From Desulfobacteraceae bacterium (GTDB lineage Bacteria; Desulfobacterota; Desulfobacteria; Desulfobacterales; SURF-7): 64,000 nucleotides of DNA. Every line of letters begins with the position of its first letter. Within the stretch, counting starts at the first letter, position 1. This document shows, piece after piece, positions 21,659-30,622 of the stretch. The position numbers and the translations under genes were made by a program. The notes below the pieces were generated by a model that was not told where the DNA came from, ran no database searches, and worked only from the letters and a program-made list of their open reading frames with translations. Location: NCBI GenBank assembly GCA_003599865.1, contig QZKS01000050.1, positions 62,001-126,000 of the forward strand. The letters run 5' to 3'.

Positions 21659-23515
21659 CTATTTGATTCTGAACTCAATGCAATCCGCTGTCAGGATTGC
21701 ACTGGCCGGATCAAACAAACCGGTGGCAAACAAATTATGAACCTTTTTTCCATCTTCAAGATGGTTTTCCAATCTCGTGATGAAGGATTCAAATGTTGTA
21801 AAAAATTGACGGCTTTCCCGGTATTGGATCAAAAATCTTCCCTGTGTCGCGGATTGGGGCTGAATCGTAGTTTCAGCGGCCATATCATCCAGGTCAACAA
21901 TGACCCCGGCCCGTCCGAGGTGATGGAATTTTCCATGATTATCTTTTGTTAATACGATCTTTTCCGATGACAGGGCCTGAAAAGGTGCGGTCGAAGGTGG
22001 CGCCCAGGTAACCCGCATAAAGGATCGCACATTGGCCACATCCACGATAGTTTGCGCGGTAAAATCAGCCGGTGCCTGGCCAAACCCGTTTACAAACCCT
22101 CTTGCTTTCAGGGTATCATTTGTTCCATACGAGGATAGATCCAGGGTTCCGGTATTGACTTCATAGTGGTCCGGATCGGTATCATGATCGACATCGATAC
22201 CGGTGCCGGAGAAATCAAATATACTGATTCTCCGGGCATCGATGGATTGCAGATCAAGTGTCAGTACCGGGGTGTCGCTCACAACCGTGCCTCTTACGGT
22301 CGTCAGCAGCATGCGAATATACCCCTGATTTTCTCCGGTTGCATCCAACTCTAGTGAATCGATATCACTGCTGGTCAACACCCCGAAAACTGTCAACCGC
22401 TGCCCCACGGAGATATCACGGATGGAAAATTCATCCTTTGACAACTGCCGTTTTACGGTCGTCGCATCATCGATCAGAACCGTCAGGATATCATGAAAAA
22501 CAACACTGCCGTCATTTCGGATCAGCGTTGCACCTTTCACCACAACCGTGTTGCCTTCTCTGCTGATGACATTGCCGGTGACGGCATCCAAACTGCCGCC
22601 CGGCACGCTGGTGCCGGTAGTGACCTCGGTTGCCTCAAACCGGTAGGGATTGAACTTCAAATCCCCGATCACCACCACAGCCGTATAGGCTGTCAAATCA
22701 TCCATAGCCGTCAAACCGGCCGAACCTTCATACTGCCGGCCATTGATATCATACACCGTGCTTTCCAGCGTTGTTACCATCAAGGAACCAAACCGCCGGT
22801 CGTTCCCGGCAATCACATGATAAAAAGGCCGCAGCATCAATTCAAATGTTCCGGCCGCGACATCGACCCTGCCCAACGGGCCGCGCATGCGATGGGTTTT
22901 GGGATTTTCCGGATCAATATCGGCAATCAAAATGGGTTCGACCGTCAGTACGGATGTCCCATCATTGGCAAACGTCACCTTGTTGGAAGAGGTCAAATCA
23001 AAGTCAAGGGTAAGGTGGGCAGGAATGCCCGGTGCAATCAGCAGAGAATTGTCATCTTCCAGATGTACGGAAACGGTCATGGTGGTAATGGGATTACCGT
23101 CTTCGTCAACGATTGTATTCACCTTGACCAGACCACCGTCGTCATTCTCCACCCAGATATCCGCATTCTGATAATCCAAGGTAAGACTTGCCTCGGTATA
23201 TACACCGGATGGAATGGTGCCGACAGTCAGAAATTCAGTCATCTCCGTATATTGTGCGAAATCCACTCTTGTGGTTACCGGCAGGGTGCTGACCACCGAA
23301 CCGTTTTGTTTAGTAAGATTGATAGACAAAACATCAACCGTATAACTGGAAAAATCTCCCTCGGCATCGGTCAGGCTGATGACTAGTTCACCGTTTTCCG
23401 TTGTTGCCGAATCCGAAGCCTGATCACTGGAACAGCCGGTCAGGCCCATGATACCCAGCAATAGTCCGATTCCAAACCAGCCGAAAACTTTTCGAAAAAT
23501 ATTCTTACGCTTCAT
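21659..23515 (-). CDS. DUF4382-containing lipoprotein
   Basis: 618-residue secreted lipoprotein. The signal peptide ends in the lipobox GLTGC (Cys28). Residues ~42-200 form a DUF4382 domain, starting ELVISLTDAEGDFSSY, with the SLTLDYQNADIWV and LTLDFDLTSS strands. The remaining ~400 residues look like repeated small beta units with VTGNVISREGNTVVVKG and RGTVVSDTPVLTLDLQS patterns, similar to DUF5666-type OB-like repeats (inference). ATG 23515 has a strong AGGAGG. It is divergent from a beta-barrel gene. Function unknown; a surface or periplasmic binding role is plausible. Confidence 0.82.
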   Translation of the reverse strand: MKRKNIFRKVFGWFGIGLLLGIMGLTGCSSDQASDSATTENGELVISLTDAEGDFSSYTVDVLSINLTKQNGSVVSTLPVTTRVDFAQYTEMTEFLTVGTIPSGVYTEASLTLDYQNADIWVENDDGGLVKVNTIVDEDGNPITTMTVSVHLEDDNSLLIAPGIPAHLTLDFDLTSSNKVTFANDGTSVLTVEPILIADIDPENPKTHRMRGPLGRVDVAAGTFELMLRPFYHVIAGNDRRFGSLMVTTLESTVYDINGRQYEGSAGLTAMDDLTAYTAVVVIGDLKFNPYRFEATEVTTGTSVPGGSLDAVTGNVISREGNTVVVKGATLIRNDGSVVFHDILTVLIDDATTVKRQLSKDEFSIRDISVGQRLTVFGVLTSSDIDSLELDATGENQGYIRMLLTTVRGTVVSDTPVLTLDLQSIDARRISIFDFSGTGIDVDHDTDPDHYEVNTGTLDLSSYGTNDTLKARGFVNGFGQAPADFTAQTIVDVANVRSFMRVTWAPPSTAPFQALSSEKIVLTKDNHGKFHHLGRAGVIVDLDDMAAETTIQPQSATQGRFLIQYRESRQFFTTFESFITRLENHLEDGKKVHNLFATGLFDPASAILTADCIEFRIK

Positions 23516-25125: not shown

Positions 25126-25713
25126 ATGAGAGCAGATCCTGATTCACAATATATGTTGCGGTTCCAAAACGGAGACCGGGATGGTTTTCGAATTCTGTTC
25201 ACCAAATATTCGAAAAAAATCATCAATTTCTGCTATCGTTTTTGTGGAGACCGGGCAATGGCGGAAGAACTGGCACAGGAAGTATTTCTCCGGGTTTACA
25301 AGGCAGCGCCCCGGTACCGGCCGGAGGCCAAATTTTCAACCTGGCTGTTCCGGATCGCCACCAATGTTTGTTTGAATGAGATGCGCAAATATCGATATCG
25401 CGTTGTTACGGAAAATATGGATATGCCATTTCAAACAGACTCCGGTTCGGTGAAGCCGGAGATGGCAGATCCGGACATCCCCCATCCGCAGGAACGGATG
25501 GAAAAAAAAGATGAGGACCGGATACTGAAACGAGCCCTGAAATCGCTGCCCAAAAAACAACGAACCGCATTGCTGCTGAAAGTATATAATGATTTTTCAT
25601 ACCAGGAGATCGGCCAACAGATGAAACACTCGGAGAGCGCGGTCAAATCCTTGATTCACAGGGCCCGGCAAACCCTTATGAAGATAATTGAGAACACCGA
25701 CAGGAGTATTTGA
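25126..25713 (+). CDS. ECF RNA polymerase sigma factor (RpoE-like)
   Basis: 195 residues. Sigma region 2 (~20-90) has the DRAMAEELAQEVFLRVY and FSTWLFRIATNVCLNEMRK core-binding and -10 motifs; region 4 (~140-190) has LPKKQRTALLLKVYNDFSY and YQEIGQQMKHSESAVKSLI as the -35 helix-turn-helix. The insert between them is acidic and Pro-rich. It is followed one base later by a zinc-finger anti-sigma gene, a typical ECF pair. The start at ATG 25126 has no strong ribosome site. Confidence 0.93.
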   Translation: MRADPDSQYMLRFQNGDRDGFRILFTKYSKKIINFCYRFCGDRAMAEELAQEVFLRVYKAAPRYRPEAKFSTWLFRIATNVCLNEMRKYRYRVVTENMDMPFQTDSGSVKPEMADPDIPHPQERMEKKDEDRILKRALKSLPKKQRTALLLKVYNDFSYQEIGQQMKHSESAVKSLIHRARQTLMKIIENTDRSI

Positions 25714-25714
25714 A

Positions 25715-26188
25715 TTGAAATCAACATGTCCGGACAGCCTGCAGATATCGGCCTTCATGGATGCCGAACTCCCGGAGCATCAGATGGAAGCGTTTCGTTC
25801 GCATCTTACCAAATGTGAACATTGTTGGGAACAACTGGCCACGCTGCAACAGGCTGATCGATTGATCCATGATATGCCGGAAATAGAACCATCCCGGCAA
25901 TTTGAAATCAACTTCTGGAAAAACGTCCGTGCCATGGAAGAACAACGGCACAAGTGGTCGTTTTTCACTTTTTTTCCATTTCGTTATAAACCCTTGGCCG
26001 CAGCCATATTGAGCGCCATGATCCTTGTCGGTCTGGCTCTGTGGAAACATCAGCCTCCATCCTCCATTGAAATGGATGAAATTGTCATTGCGGAGAATCT
26101 GGAAATGCTCCGAAATTTTCAGGAAATCGATCGGCTGGAGCTTCTGGAAAACTTGGAAACCATTATCAATATGGATGAGAAATCCTAA
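25715..26188 (+). CDS. Zinc-finger anti-sigma factor, membrane-anchored
   Basis: 157 residues from TTG 25715, chosen because AGGAG lies eight bases upstream and the sigma stop is one base before it. The N-terminal ASD/zinc finger has His30, Cys34 and Cys37 (HLTKCEHC), a single membrane helix spans about 93-110 (PLAAAILSAMILVGLALW), and the periplasmic tail (111-157) is a short acidic, leucine-rich helix. It should hold the ECF sigma at the membrane. The tail resembles the next gene's product (see findings). Confidence 0.88.
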   Translation: MKSTCPDSLQISAFMDAELPEHQMEAFRSHLTKCEHCWEQLATLQQADRLIHDMPEIEPSRQFEINFWKNVRAMEEQRHKWSFFTFFPFRYKPLAAAILSAMILVGLALWKHQPPSSIEMDEIVIAENLEMLRNFQEIDRLELLENLETIINMDEKS

Positions 26189-26419
26189 ATGAAATCGATT
26201 TTTTTACTGCTGTGGATGGTACTTTTATTTCAGCCGGTACTGCCCGCCCATTCCGAAGAAAGCCAAACAGAAACCAATGTCGTCCGGATATCCGAAGAGG
26301 ATCTTGAAATCATAAAGGTTTTAGAAATCCTGAAAATGATGGCTCTGATGGAAAATTATGACATCGTGAAAGACATGGAAATACTTACCGAGGAAAATGC
26401 CGATGAAAATAAAAAATAA
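26189..26419 (+). CDS. Small secreted acidic protein resembling the anti-sigma tail
   Basis: 76 residues starting immediately after the anti-sigma stop. A signal peptide (FLLLWMVLLFQPVLPA) leaves a mature part of about 55 residues, strongly acidic and Leu/Ile/Met-rich. Residues 32-60 align without gaps in hydrophobic pattern with residues 122-150 of the anti-sigma factor, sharing the LE and MEN/LEN positions. No named family recognised. Its place between the anti-sigma and the DUF3106 gene suggests a part in the same periplasmic signalling step. Confidence 0.72.
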   Translation: MKSIFLLLWMVLLFQPVLPAHSEESQTETNVVRISEEDLEIIKVLEILKMMALMENYDIVKDMEILTEENADENKK

Positions 26420-26903
26420 TCTCGTGATGATGTTCGCATTCCTGCTTGTTACAATCGCTGCCGCTCATGCGTCGGATCAACCATCATCCGCAACGGACGA
26501 GTGGATGTCCATGACGGCTGAGGAAAAGCAGGCGTTCCGCAACCGGTATCATAACTGGAAATCGTTGCCGGAACCTGAAAGGAATAAGATCAGACAAAAC
26601 CTTGCGACATTTAAAAAGCTTCCAGCGGATGAAAAAAAGCGGATCATTGAAAATTATTCCCGTTTCCAATCCCTTTCGCCGGATCAGAAACAATCGCTCC
26701 GAAAAAATTTCAAACGATGGCAACAGCTTCCTCCGGAAAGAAAAAGACAGCTGCGGGAAAACCTTATAAAATTTCAAGGGCTCCGACCGGAACAGAAAAA
26801 AAGCCTGATCAACCGTTATCAAAACTGGCGGAAATTATCCCCGACAGAAAAGAAAACACGCAAAGATATCATTCGAGAAAAGAGAAGAAACCGGGATTCA
26901 TAA
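26403..26903 (+). CDS. DUF3106 protein built of 18-residue basic repeats
   Basis: 166 residues: a signal peptide ending near AHASD, then seven tandem 18-residue repeats from about residue 37, each beginning LPxExK/R with a Trp or Phe at position 16 (for example LPEPERNKIRQNLATFKK and LPADEKKRIIENYSRFQS). The mature protein is very basic. ATG 26403 is preferred over 26397 because AGGA is then eight bases upstream; the gene overlaps the end of the small acidic gene by 17 bases. DUF3106 proteins are commonly found at the end of ECF sigma operons; molecular function unknown. Confidence 0.85.
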   Translation: MKIKNNLVMMFAFLLVTIAAAHASDQPSSATDEWMSMTAEEKQAFRNRYHNWKSLPEPERNKIRQNLATFKKLPADEKKRIIENYSRFQSLSPDQKQSLRKNFKRWQQLPPERKRQLRENLIKFQGLRPEQKKSLINRYQNWRKLSPTEKKTRKDIIREKRRNRDS

Positions 26904-27140: not shown

Positions 27141-29444
27141 ATGGCGGAAAAACACGAAAATACGCAAGCTCTTCCGGAAAAACCACCCGGGCACTCAACT
27201 GTCTCCATGCCGGATACCGCATGGTTCACGGATGTTATCAATGAACTGAACATTACCCGTAAAAATGTGCTGATCTATCCGGATGAACACATCCAGATAC
27301 AAAACAGCATGAAACGATCTTTCCGTGCATTGAACCTGATTTTCTCATCCATTCCCAAATTAGTCATCACCATCACAGACAAAAAATTGATTGTGGGAAA
27401 TGAAACCTTTGATCCTCAGAACAGACGATTTAAAGAATTTGCAGACGCTATCCGGCAGCATGAAATTATTTCGGTTATTTTTCTGAAAGGGATTGAAACA
27501 GAAGAGCTGCTAAGATTTCTCCGCATCATCGCCACCAAACCGGAAACCATCAGAAGCATGGGTGGTATTGAAAAAACGGCAAGAGACAACTCCCTTTTCA
27601 ATATTGAAATCAAAACCATTGACTTCAGCAAACTCCACCTCACAGAAGAAACCAATATTGTCGTTGATCAGGCAGGCAAAAAAACAGATGCCGACCCAAA
27701 GAGCGTATGGGATAATCTGGTCATGAACCTGGTATCCGGTTCCATCACCGATTCCGACATGGGTGTCGACCTTTTTGTCGCAAACAAAATTACACCGACG
27801 GAACTTGCCGGATTTCTGAACGACCAAAATCCGGATTCAATGCGCTCCATAAGGCTGTTTGAGAATTTGTTCCGGATAAGCCTTTCAAAAATTGAAACCC
27901 ATGAAGAGGACAGCGAGCAGGCTTCCAGGCATTTCAATAACGTCAACCTGCTCCTGCAGGAACTGAATCCGGAGATGCGTCAACAGTTTCTATCCGTTAC
28001 CCTGCAGCACTGCAATGATGAATCCGATCCGCAGAAATCCCGGACAATCATCAGCGGCTTGCAGGAAAAATTTATCATTGAAATGATGCGACAGGCCAAT
28101 GATCGAGGGCAGGAAATTTCACCATCCTTAATTGAATTTACAAAAAAAATAGCCAATATCAAAGGCTTGCCCCCATCTTCATTCGGGAATACCAATCCTG
28201 ACGCGCTGGAAAACGATTCGGCAATACAAACGAAAGAGGCAGAGACCTTATTCAAGCGGGAGTCCTTTGAACAATATGTTACCAAGGAATATGAGGAAAT
28301 GCTGTCCGGTCTTGCCTCAACCGAACAATTGGAAATCGTATCGGATCCGGAACGGTTTTCCATTGAAGACCATCTGAAAACACTGGAAGAAAAAAATCTG
28401 GATATCCAGATTGCCAGAGTTCTCATCGCATTCATCAATGAAAACATTGAACTGGATGAGTATCTGGATTATTCCAAACGGCTGATCTCCATCTGCAATG
28501 AAATCAGCATTTCAAGGAATGAAGATTTTCTTTTCCTGAAAGAAATCTTTTTTACCTTTAAACTACATGCCATCCATAAATCCAACCCGGAACTGCGATC
28601 CATTGCCGGAATCTGTTTGGAAGAGATTGAAAAACCACTGTTCTTCGCCAGGGCAGTGGATGCTTTTGACAAGCTGGGAAAACAGGAAAACAATGAGGCC
28701 ATTGATTTTCTGGTTCTGCTTGGACCGAAAATTGTTCCTGAAGTGGTTAATCTGTTTGCCAAATATGAATATCCGGAAAACGGAAAGCACCTGATAAACC
28801 TTCTCTCCAACTTCAGTGAAGCGGCATGCAATGAGGTTAAGAAAAGAATTCATGACCCAAGGCCATCCTATGTTAAAAATCTCGTTATCCTGACCCGGGA
28901 AATCGGAAATAAGGAGATTGCATCCTACCTGGATTATCTGCTGGATCATAAAGATCAGACCATCCAGCTGGAAACGCTATCCGCACTGTTAAAATTTCAT
29001 CATCCAAAGGCAGGCCACCTTCTCTGCCGCCTACTAGACGCAAGCCAGCCTGAAATCGTTTCTCAGGCAATTCAATTGTCCGGGCAATACAAAGTACAGG
29101 AAACAGCGGAACACCTTGTCAAAATGCTGAAAAGTCCGGCCATCACAAGAACAACTATCCAAAAAAATGAAGAACTGATCCTCGCACTGGGCAACATCGG
29201 TAATCCTGTTGCCATACCATTTCTGGAAAAACTGGTCAGAACCTACTTCACACTTTTCCCCAAAACATTGTTAAAAATGAAACAGACCATTTTCGAAACC
29301 CTTGATAGCTATCCGGATATAGAAGTCTCTTCTTTGTTGAAAATCGGAATTCGAATGGAGAACCCCAAAATAAAAAAGATATGTCAACATTATCTTAAAG
29401 ATGTTCAAAACAAGAACAAACCTGACTATCATGATATGCCATGA
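27141..29444 (+). CDS. HEAT-repeat-like protein with shared N-terminal domain
   Basis: 767 residues, no signal peptide or membrane helix, so cytoplasmic. Residues ~33-135 form an alpha/beta domain (RKNVLIYPDEH, KLVITITDKKLIVGNETF, FLRIIATKP) that resembles the N-terminus of the next protein. A long helical middle follows, and from about 540 to 750 a run of helical pairs resembling HEAT/Armadillo repeats (EAIDFLVLLGPKIVPEVVNLF, LLDHKDQTIQLETLSALLKF, ELILALGNIGNPVAIPFLEKL). Probable scaffold or partner of the downstream HD-GYP protein, 17 bases away. Start ATG 27141 has no clear ribosome site. Confidence 0.75.
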   Translation: MAEKHENTQALPEKPPGHSTVSMPDTAWFTDVINELNITRKNVLIYPDEHIQIQNSMKRSFRALNLIFSSIPKLVITITDKKLIVGNETFDPQNRRFKEFADAIRQHEIISVIFLKGIETEELLRFLRIIATKPETIRSMGGIEKTARDNSLFNIEIKTIDFSKLHLTEETNIVVDQAGKKTDADPKSVWDNLVMNLVSGSITDSDMGVDLFVANKITPTELAGFLNDQNPDSMRSIRLFENLFRISLSKIETHEEDSEQASRHFNNVNLLLQELNPEMRQQFLSVTLQHCNDESDPQKSRTIISGLQEKFIIEMMRQANDRGQEISPSLIEFTKKIANIKGLPPSSFGNTNPDALENDSAIQTKEAETLFKRESFEQYVTKEYEEMLSGLASTEQLEIVSDPERFSIEDHLKTLEEKNLDIQIARVLIAFINENIELDEYLDYSKRLISICNEISISRNEDFLFLKEIFFTFKLHAIHKSNPELRSIAGICLEEIEKPLFFARAVDAFDKLGKQENNEAIDFLVLLGPKIVPEVVNLFAKYEYPENGKHLINLLSNFSEAACNEVKKRIHDPRPSYVKNLVILTREIGNKEIASYLDYLLDHKDQTIQLETLSALLKFHHPKAGHLLCRLLDASQPEIVSQAIQLSGQYKVQETAEHLVKMLKSPAITRTTIQKNEELILALGNIGNPVAIPFLEKLVRTYFTLFPKTLLKMKQTIFETLDSYPDIEVSSLLKIGIRMENPKIKKICQHYLKDVQNKNKPDYHDMP

Positions 29445-29461
29445 GTCAATACAAAACCTGA

Positions 29462-30622
29462 ATGTCACTTTTCAAGACGGCTGAAATGGAACATAAAAAA
29501 GAACTGTTACAGATTATCAAAACCTTTAATGCGGCAATTGTCAATTCACGCCTGTACTCCTTTGAACATCCCCAGGTCAAACGATATATCGAAGAAACGT
29601 TTATCGAACTTGATCGTCTTCTGATGATTCTGCAGGAGATCACCCTGATTGTTGTCGGTACAAATCTGGTTTTCCGGAACCAGACTATTCAGGGAAGCGG
29701 GCCGAATATCAAACAATTTATCAGTATCTTGCAGGATAATAAAATTGATCGCATTTCATTTCTTTCCCATCTTCCCAAATCCTCTTTTTATGAACTGATA
29801 CAAAAACTCTCTTCTTCTGAAACAAGGGAATTGAACAGCACCGAATATGTTAAGCTTGGAAAGGTTGAAATCAGGATTGAGGATAATCCGTTTTCCCAGA
29901 ATCAACTGTCTTCTGATGAATATTCGGAAAAAATGGATCAGTTGTTATCCCTCCGAGACGAAACCCTGCAGGAAATTAAAGAAATTTATAATGGTATAAA
30001 AAAATATAAAAAACAAATTGATGTCCGTGGTATCGAAACCATGGTGAAAACATTTATCAAGGGATTCTCACACGGCATCAACCCCATCAGCATGCTGGCC
30101 TCACTGAAATCGGCGGATGAATACACCTTCACCCATGTGATCAATGTCTGTATTCTTACCATGAGCCAGGCGGAAGCTCTCGGCTTTTCAGGCGAAAAGC
30201 TTTACCAGATCGGAATTGCCTCGGTTATGCATGATGCGGGAAAGCTCTTCATCCCGGAAGAAATACTGAACAAGCCAGGCATGTTGACAACAGAAGAAAG
30301 AGCGATCATTGAAACCCACACAACAAAAGGAGCCCGATATATTCTTGGACTTGAAAATATCCCCCAGATCGCTGTGCTGGGTGCCCTGGAACACCATATC
30401 AAATATAACGGAACCGGCTATCCTGTCATGCAAAAGAAATGGACTCCGAATATCGTCAGTCAGATGATTTCCATTGCCGATGTATTTGATGCCATGAGAA
30501 GCCGCAGGGCCTATAAAGAACCAAAGCCAAAAGAATTGATCATCCAAATTTTAAACGAGGAAAAAGGCACATCCTTTAACCCGTTTCTTGTGGATCATTT
30601 TATCAAGCTGATAAAAGGTTAG
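29462..30622 (+). CDS. HD-GYP domain phosphodiesterase
   Basis: 386 residues. The N-terminal domain (~20-120) matches the pattern of the upstream HEAT protein's N-terminus (SRLYSFEHPQVKRYI, LIVVGTNLVFRNQTI). A short helical linker leads to an HD-GYP domain with His225 in FTHVINVC, the HD doublet at 257-258 (MHDAGK), HH at 311-312 and an intact GYP at 319-321 in NGTGYP. Predicted c-di-GMP or cGAMP phosphodiesterase. There is no receiver domain, so control is likely through the N-terminal domain or the HEAT partner. Confidence 0.9.
   Translation: MSLFKTAEMEHKKELLQIIKTFNAAIVNSRLYSFEHPQVKRYIEETFIELDRLLMILQEITLIVVGTNLVFRNQTIQGSGPNIKQFISILQDNKIDRISFLSHLPKSSFYELIQKLSSSETRELNSTEYVKLGKVEIRIEDNPFSQNQLSSDEYSEKMDQLLSLRDETLQEIKEIYNGIKKYKKQIDVRGIETMVKTFIKGFSHGINPISMLASLKSADEYTFTHVINVCILTMSQAEALGFSGEKLYQIGIASVMHDAGKLFIPEEILNKPGMLTTEERAIIETHTTKGARYILGLENIPQIAVLGALEHHIKYNGTGYPVMQKKWTPNIVSQMISIADVFDAMRSRRAYKEPKPKELIIQILNEEKGTSFNPFLVDHFIKLIKG

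Follow-up and report, generated by a model that had tools for sequence, protein, structure and literature searches.

Behind an ECF sigma factor gene and its anti-sigma factor gene, a Desulfobacteraceae genome encodes a small acidic protein and a strongly basic repeat protein of the DUF3106 family (PF11304), which raises the question of what such a protein does beside a sigma factor. We analyzed this locus in a 64,000-nucleotide stretch of contig QZKS01000050.1, referred to here as the window, and its features are collected in Table 1. A first-pass annotation of the same DNA had suggested that charge-driven binding in the periplasm could tune the sigma response. The reading we favor, with a probability of about 60%, is that the sigma factor, the anti-sigma factor, the small secreted protein and the DUF3106 protein make up one regulatory module, in which DUF3106 would dock on a motif in the anti-sigma tail.

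Table 1. Features of the DUF3106 locus, in window positions.
Feature	Positions	Strand	Remarks
Outer-membrane beta-barrel-like protein, 442 aa	23749..25077	+	48 nt upstream of sigma gene
ECF sigma factor, 195 aa	25126..25713	+	Sigma70_r2 2.6e-21, Sigma70_r4_2 1.6e-16, TIGR02937 7.1e-35
Zinc-finger membrane anti-sigma factor, 157 aa	25715..26188	+	zf-HC2 4e-5, over cut-off; start TTG 25715
Hx3Cx2C zinc-finger signature HLTKCEHC	25802..25825	+	sequence reading; zf-HC2
Anti-sigma single transmembrane helix	25988..26044	+	19-residue hydropathy maximum 1.9
Periplasmic anti-sigma tail, 47 aa, net -8, pI 4.2	26045..26185	+	
Four acidic tail hexads LEMLRN FQEIDR LELLEN LETIIN	26099..26170	+	hexad run of 4
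Small acidic, probably secreted protein, 76 aa	26189..26419	+	signal-peptide-like N-terminus read by eye
Small-protein hexad region LEIIKV LEILKM MALMEN YDIVKD MEILTE	26303..26392	+	anti-sigma tail profile recognises 23 of 24 small proteins
DUF3106 protein, 166 aa	26403..26903	+	PF11304 E 1.8e-27; alternative ATG 26397; start overlaps small-gene end
Probable Sec signal peptide of DUF3106	26403..26474	+	ends near AAAHAS; read by eye; N-terminal helix low-confidence in AlphaFold2 model
Seven 18-residue units: six canonical, last degenerate	26511..26888	+	residues 37 to 162

The cognate sigma factor gene lies directly upstream of the anti-sigma gene (sigma stop at 25713, anti-sigma start at 25715), and a longer anti-sigma start at TTG 25688 is also possible. 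The zf-HC2 match of the anti-sigma factor reaches 24.1 bits over a cut-off of 22.2 and is the sole match to this family in the genome. Passages of a published study give Hx3Cx2C as the signature of class I zinc anti-sigma factors (PMC7406223), and the window protein carries it within an N-terminal zinc-finger domain, as a candidate member of this class. The ATG of the small protein follows directly after the anti-sigma stop codon, and no Pfam or NCBIfam family matches the small protein at cut-off. Both the anti-sigma tail and this neighbor had been described as strongly acidic, in agreement with net charges of -8 over 47 residues for the tail and -10 over 54 residues (pI 4.15) for the small protein once its signal is removed.

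In a Pfam profile search the DUF3106 reading frame matches PF11304 at 96.3 bits, against a gathering cut-off of 24.3. Its signal-peptide-like N-terminus, read by eye, indicates that the protein is probably secreted, and without the signal it carries a net charge of +20 over 142 residues (pI 10.7), as expected from its earlier description as strongly basic. Starting at residue 37, the repeat units are MTAEEKQAFRNRYHNWKS, LPEPERNKIRQNLATFKK, LPADEKKRIIENYSRFQS, LSPDQKQSLRKNFKRWQQ, LPPERKRQLRENLIKFQG, LRPEQKKSLINRYQNWRK and LSPTEKKTRKDIIREKRR. An exact period of 18 residues had been proposed and was borne out by BLOSUM62 autocorrelation, which at lag 18 lies 10.4 SD above 2000 shuffles (9.4 at lag 36) and shows no rise above the shuffles at lags 16, 17 and 19. 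Conserved unit positions are 1 (L/M), 6 (K/R), 9 (L/I/F), 13 (Y/F/L) and 16 (W/F), and the hydrophobic residues at 1, 9, 13 and 16 together with K/R at 6 are present in all six of the first units. The seventh unit is without the hydrophobic residues at positions 9 and 16, so that the initial count of seven repeats amounts to six canonical units and a degenerate one. Likewise, the consensus LPxExK...[WF]Kx turned out to be loose, with P, S, T or R at position 2 and K, Q or R at position 17. W34, invariant in 13 aligned sequences, is located at position 16 of a would-be preceding half unit.

The helical repeat is seen in a predicted model built with AlphaFold2 from the 13-sequence alignment (mean pLDDT 85.7, pTM 0.52). 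Each unit is predicted to fold as a 15-residue helix followed by a 3-residue turn, with helices at residues 39-53, 57-71, 75-89, 93-107, 111-125, 129-143 and 147-165. This gives about four turns and a break per unit, rather than the five alpha-helical turns first described. No significant relative was found in the PDB by fold (best Foldseek E 1.4, best VIA Z 3.4). The best match of a sequence profile against the PDB, a phosphatase and actin regulator at E 0.022, was taken as chance and rejected.

DUF3106 was detected in 24 of 96 relatives, 82 of 394 genomes of the phylum and 58 of 252 genomes of the window's order, the last set overlapping the other two; named relatives of the window are Desulfosudis, Desulfobacterium and Desulforapulum MAGs. 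It was also present in 78 of 276 genomes of a class sample drawn around a gammaproteobacterial relative, a Thalassocella MAG that we take to belong to Gammaproteobacteria on the strength of its genus name. A search of a plasmid collection gave no match. Family-wide, 561 units were counted in 108 proteins, with 426 of 454 gaps measuring exactly 18 residues and a background of 0.10 matches per shuffled protein. Gene order bears out the suggested tie between DUF3106 and an ECF sigma factor. Of 107 phylum loci (27 from relatives, 80 from the phylum), 102 have a sigma gene upstream of DUF3106 and on its strand, as do 29 of the 30 gammaproteobacterial and 16 of the 18 hold-out loci. Among the phylum loci without it, L035 and L066 are at contig ends and L059, L072 and L136 have enough upstream DNA; the gammaproteobacterial exception starts at a contig end, and in the two hold-out misses the upstream DNA is 422 and 298 nt long. 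On the downstream side of DUF3106 the genes are diverse across loci. On the upstream side FecR/DUF6600 genes were found in 3 of 57 scanned, and a genome search for DUF6600 had little bearing on the DUF3106 loci.

The anti-sigma tails and the small protein have in common tandem acidic hexads of the form hydrophobic-[DE]-x-hydrophobic-x-x. Runs of at least two hexads occur in 75 of 85 DUF3106-linked tails and in 1 of 34 control tails, a comparison that is not blind, as the rule was drafted after inspecting linked and control tails. By set, 24 of 25 tails from relatives and 51 of 60 from the phylum follow the rule; nine of the ten linked tails that fail it are from phylum loci, mostly with a short form of the motif. 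Controls were zf-HC2 anti-sigma factors of the same phylum without DUF3106 nearby, reduced from 40 to 34 by dropping those whose membrane helix was not clear or whose tail was short. A tail profile built from loci without the small protein scored at least 10 bits in 23 of 24 small proteins, in none of 39 control tails (each longer than 20 residues) and in none of 960 shuffles. With rule and profiles frozen, at least 10 bits were reached by 14 of 15 new tails and by 16 of 20 gammaproteobacterial picks, and the hexad rule held in 12 of 15 and 15 of 20 respectively, the gammaproteobacterial tails having been seen beforehand. Loci that yielded no pick are outside these denominators: three of the 18 in the order set and ten of the 30 gammaproteobacterial ones. 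Four picks are the small protein and not the tail (L244, L226, L227 and L228); the first three were counted as misses, and L228 is among the 16 gammaproteobacterial matches (10.2 bits with the small-protein profile), leaving 15 true gammaproteobacterial tails.

A search of 198 whole genomes with the small-protein profile returned 24 matches in 23 genomes, and 23 of the 24 matches lie 92-483 nt from a DUF3106 match. Seven of these 23 are rows of the profile and the other 16 come from outside it. The 24th match is a simple-repeat open reading frame with neither sigma gene nor DUF3106 and was set aside as an artefact. At the level of sequence, the motif is shared by tail and small protein and is exclusive to the vicinity of DUF3106 genome-wide. 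The opposite-charge pairing proposed at the outset holds across the family, but charge alone fails to describe the partners, because the specific hexad motif they have in common occurs only beside DUF3106 genome-wide.

Partner properties were compared across 86 loci including the window, after loci without an automatic anti-sigma pick, at least 17 in number, had been left out. The small protein is encoded in 26 of them, two of which (L055 and L094) were missed by the small-protein rule and added by hand. All 26 have a DUF3106 protein with 6-8 units, against a median of 4 units in the 60 loci without the small protein (Mann-Whitney p 1.4e-9). The association of array length with the small protein persists in independent contrasts on the sigma tree (r 0.39, p 2e-4), on which locus type changes five times by parsimony. 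Homologues of the barrel gene occur in 14 other loci, and, with the window counted, each of the 15 loci belongs to the small-protein type; weak Alginate_exp similarity was seen in 6 of 13 barrel members (best 3.5e-5), and the barrel profile had no match among PDB sequences. DUF3106 is positively charged in 86 of 86 loci and the anti-sigma tail negatively in 82 of 86, with tail acidity rising with DUF3106 basicity (raw rho -0.40; sigma-tree contrasts r -0.31, p 0.004, n = 85). Together with the CpxP precedent discussed below, these trends lend indirect support to the idea of charge-driven binding. Binding of one unit per hexad was rejected in its simple form because unit count is unrelated to the length of the tail hexad run (rho ~0, n = 86).

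In the module that we propose, the cytoplasmic zinc-finger domain of the anti-sigma factor would hold the sigma factor, and a single membrane pass would expose the short acidic hexad tail to the periplasm. DUF3106, a putative periplasmic string of short basic helices, would dock on this tail by hydrophobic and charge contacts, and such physical docking is probable. Once docked, it would decide whether proteases cut the tail, comparable to RseB on RseA; we see about even chances, by analogy, that DUF3106 protects the tail and keeps the sigma factor off in resting cells. The small protein may reproduce the tail motif in free form and share, or compete for, the same docking surface; it could then act as a decoy or buffer, setting the threshold of the response. 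That it competes for DUF3106 is a tentative part of the scheme. Slightly more speculative still is that it is secreted as a soluble imitation of the tail of its own anti-sigma factor, forming a competitive guard-plus-decoy timer. Expressed from the common operon, it would under that scheme build up after the sigma factor is switched on and titrate the DUF3106 guard or be titrated itself, and guard, tail and decoy tail would read each other via an acidic hexad code on the 18-residue helical repeat. The barrel gene adjoining the module hints at envelope stress, or a cue related to the barrel, as the signal.

The proposed roles, DUF3106 as a guard of the tail and the small protein as a tuner of that guard, follow the analogy with RseB, FoxA and CpxP. 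In excerpts of one report, the periplasmic protein RseB, encoded in the same operon, binds RseA on its periplasmic side, blocks its cleavage and must leave before DegS cuts (PMC8103513). On that partial account, the sigma-E system of E. coli resembles the window in its ECF sigma factor, single-pass anti-sigma factor and same-operon periplasmic protein, whereas the DUF3106 module differs in having an 18-residue helical repeat, a short acidic hexad tail and an extra secreted protein with the tail motif. CpxP is described, in sections of another report, as a basic all-helical periplasmic protein whose charge restrains CpxA until salt or misfolded pilin displaces it (PMC4160245). As far as those sections go, DUF3106 is similar in being basic, putatively periplasmic and (by prediction) helical; unlike the histidine kinase CpxA, however, its putative target is an anti-sigma factor. 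Among the 19 Pfam families listed at E up to 1, DUF3106 matched neither the MucB/RseB family nor the CpxP/Spy (LTXXQ) family, and comparison of CpxP (3itf) with the DUF3106 model was not significant (E 8.2 in Foldseek; in VIA, Z 3.1 over 62 residues with an rmsd of 12.3). The FoxA signaling domain, according to portions of a third report, binds the C-terminal domain of FoxR when no signal is present and protects it from proteolysis (PMC11637429); the partner described there is a domain of a TonB-dependent transducer, whereas in the DUF3106 module it would be a separate repeat protein. No TonB or plug family, as looked for in a FecA/FecR-type system, appeared among the Pfam matches of the co-encoded barrel and its homologues.

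A similar gene order, sigma-DUF3619-DUF3106, is found in proteobacteria and was the same in our gammaproteobacterial loci, whereas the anti-sigma factor of the window lineage is of the zf-HC2 type. One gammaproteobacterial anti-sigma factor matches DUF3619 over cut-off (L225, 2.7e-7), another falls just below it (L221), and L231 and L239 give no match. Since DUF3106 is paired there with a DUF3619-like anti-sigma factor, this gene order may be visible in annotation. In the gammaproteobacterial loci L212-L241 the place between the anti-sigma gene and DUF3106 is taken by another kind of small secreted protein, in which an ELLEFLGxWE..DP-like motif is conserved; those scanned had no Pfam or NCBIfam match.

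Other arrangements of the same parts have to be weighed against this module. The small protein and the tail could bind DUF3106 side by side as a three-part sensor, with the small protein as a co-ligand or a bridge, for example to the barrel, and its loss freeing the tail. Arrays of 6-8 units in small-protein loci would fit two simultaneous ligands, and the restriction of the barrel to small-protein loci (15 of 15) points the same way. However, the likeness between the motifs of small protein and tail fits one common site equally well, and no structural sign of simultaneous binding came from an AlphaFold2 model of locus L134, in which a single read-through chain joins the small protein to DUF3106. 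We regard this arrangement as rather unlikely. The L134 model, which came without inter-domain error or coordinates, showed no confident docking (pTM 0.51, hexad pLDDT ~59-67).

This lack of docking is in line with a further alternative, in which DUF3106 serves the sigma regulon as an effector or chaperone and binds polyanions such as LPS or misfolded acidic proteins, while the tail senses something else. Conserved adjacency could then be mere co-regulation. The strong positive charge of DUF3106 would suit polyanion binding, and two helical proteins of the periplasm, Spy and CpxP, act as chaperones or accessory factors (for CpxP, sections of PMC4160245). Such a role would nevertheless leave unexplained why the hexad motif is found only beside DUF3106 and, bar 1 of 34, is absent from control anti-sigma tails, and why charges and array length change in step with the partners, and we consider it improbable. 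Highly charged secreted proteins are common, and the basic and acidic compositions might be unrelated accidents among operon neighbors. Conservation of a specific motif across two phyla argues strongly against such coincidence, as does the motif search of 198 genomes, and we give it very little credence. The module with DUF3106 docking on the tail motif is the reading we retain.

Pairs of ECF sigma and anti-sigma factors that have an accessory protein in the periplasm are an already known kind of system. In the literature searched, the motif common to tail and small protein, the likeness of the small protein to the tail and the link to array length appear undescribed. No paper naming DUF3106, PF11304 or DUF3619 was found in a search that left aside supplementary files and most subscription papers, and no title or abstract opening in the literature on anti-sigma co-regulators, decoys and acidic tails describes the module. 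The putative signaling module is widespread in bacteria and apparently unstudied so far. Through the shared motif, DUF3106, which has no assigned function, and an undescribed family of small secreted proteins gain a testable role and a candidate peptide ligand. If the decoy reading is true, the small protein would offer a new way of setting the threshold of an ECF response or the time for which it lasts, and guard plus decoy would add a new regulatory logic to those of ECF sigma factors.

Several further observations concern individual loci and the flanks of the module. Fusion of anti-sigma factor and DUF3106, considered by reading-frame length in nine GC-rich loci (L070, L071, L080, L084, L105, L118, L119, L123 and L124), was rejected because these frames cover the upstream gene out of its own reading frame and then reach a second start with a signal-peptide-like sequence. 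A real fusion was found at L073:2807-4360 (+), where a 517-residue open reading frame joins a FecR domain (2.4e-14) to DUF3106 (5.8e-20); genes for an anti-sigma factor and a small hexad protein lie upstream of it. Locus L059 has an acidic small open reading frame with FLEYLGTFQ just upstream of DUF3106. A second DUF3106 gene in a genome of the same genus (G002) lies near a contig start with no visible sigma gene (L035:367-861, +). On the upstream side of the window locus, a divergent gene at 21659-23515 (-) encodes a 618-residue lipoprotein-like protein with a DUF4382 domain. The intergenic DNA between this gene and the barrel gene probably holds shared control elements, because it aligns well with the same region in L041 and L154. 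Downstream of the module, a HEAT-repeat protein and then an HD_5 protein are encoded at 27141-30622 (+), and the HEAT gene recurs only in two loci of the same genus, L036 and L041.
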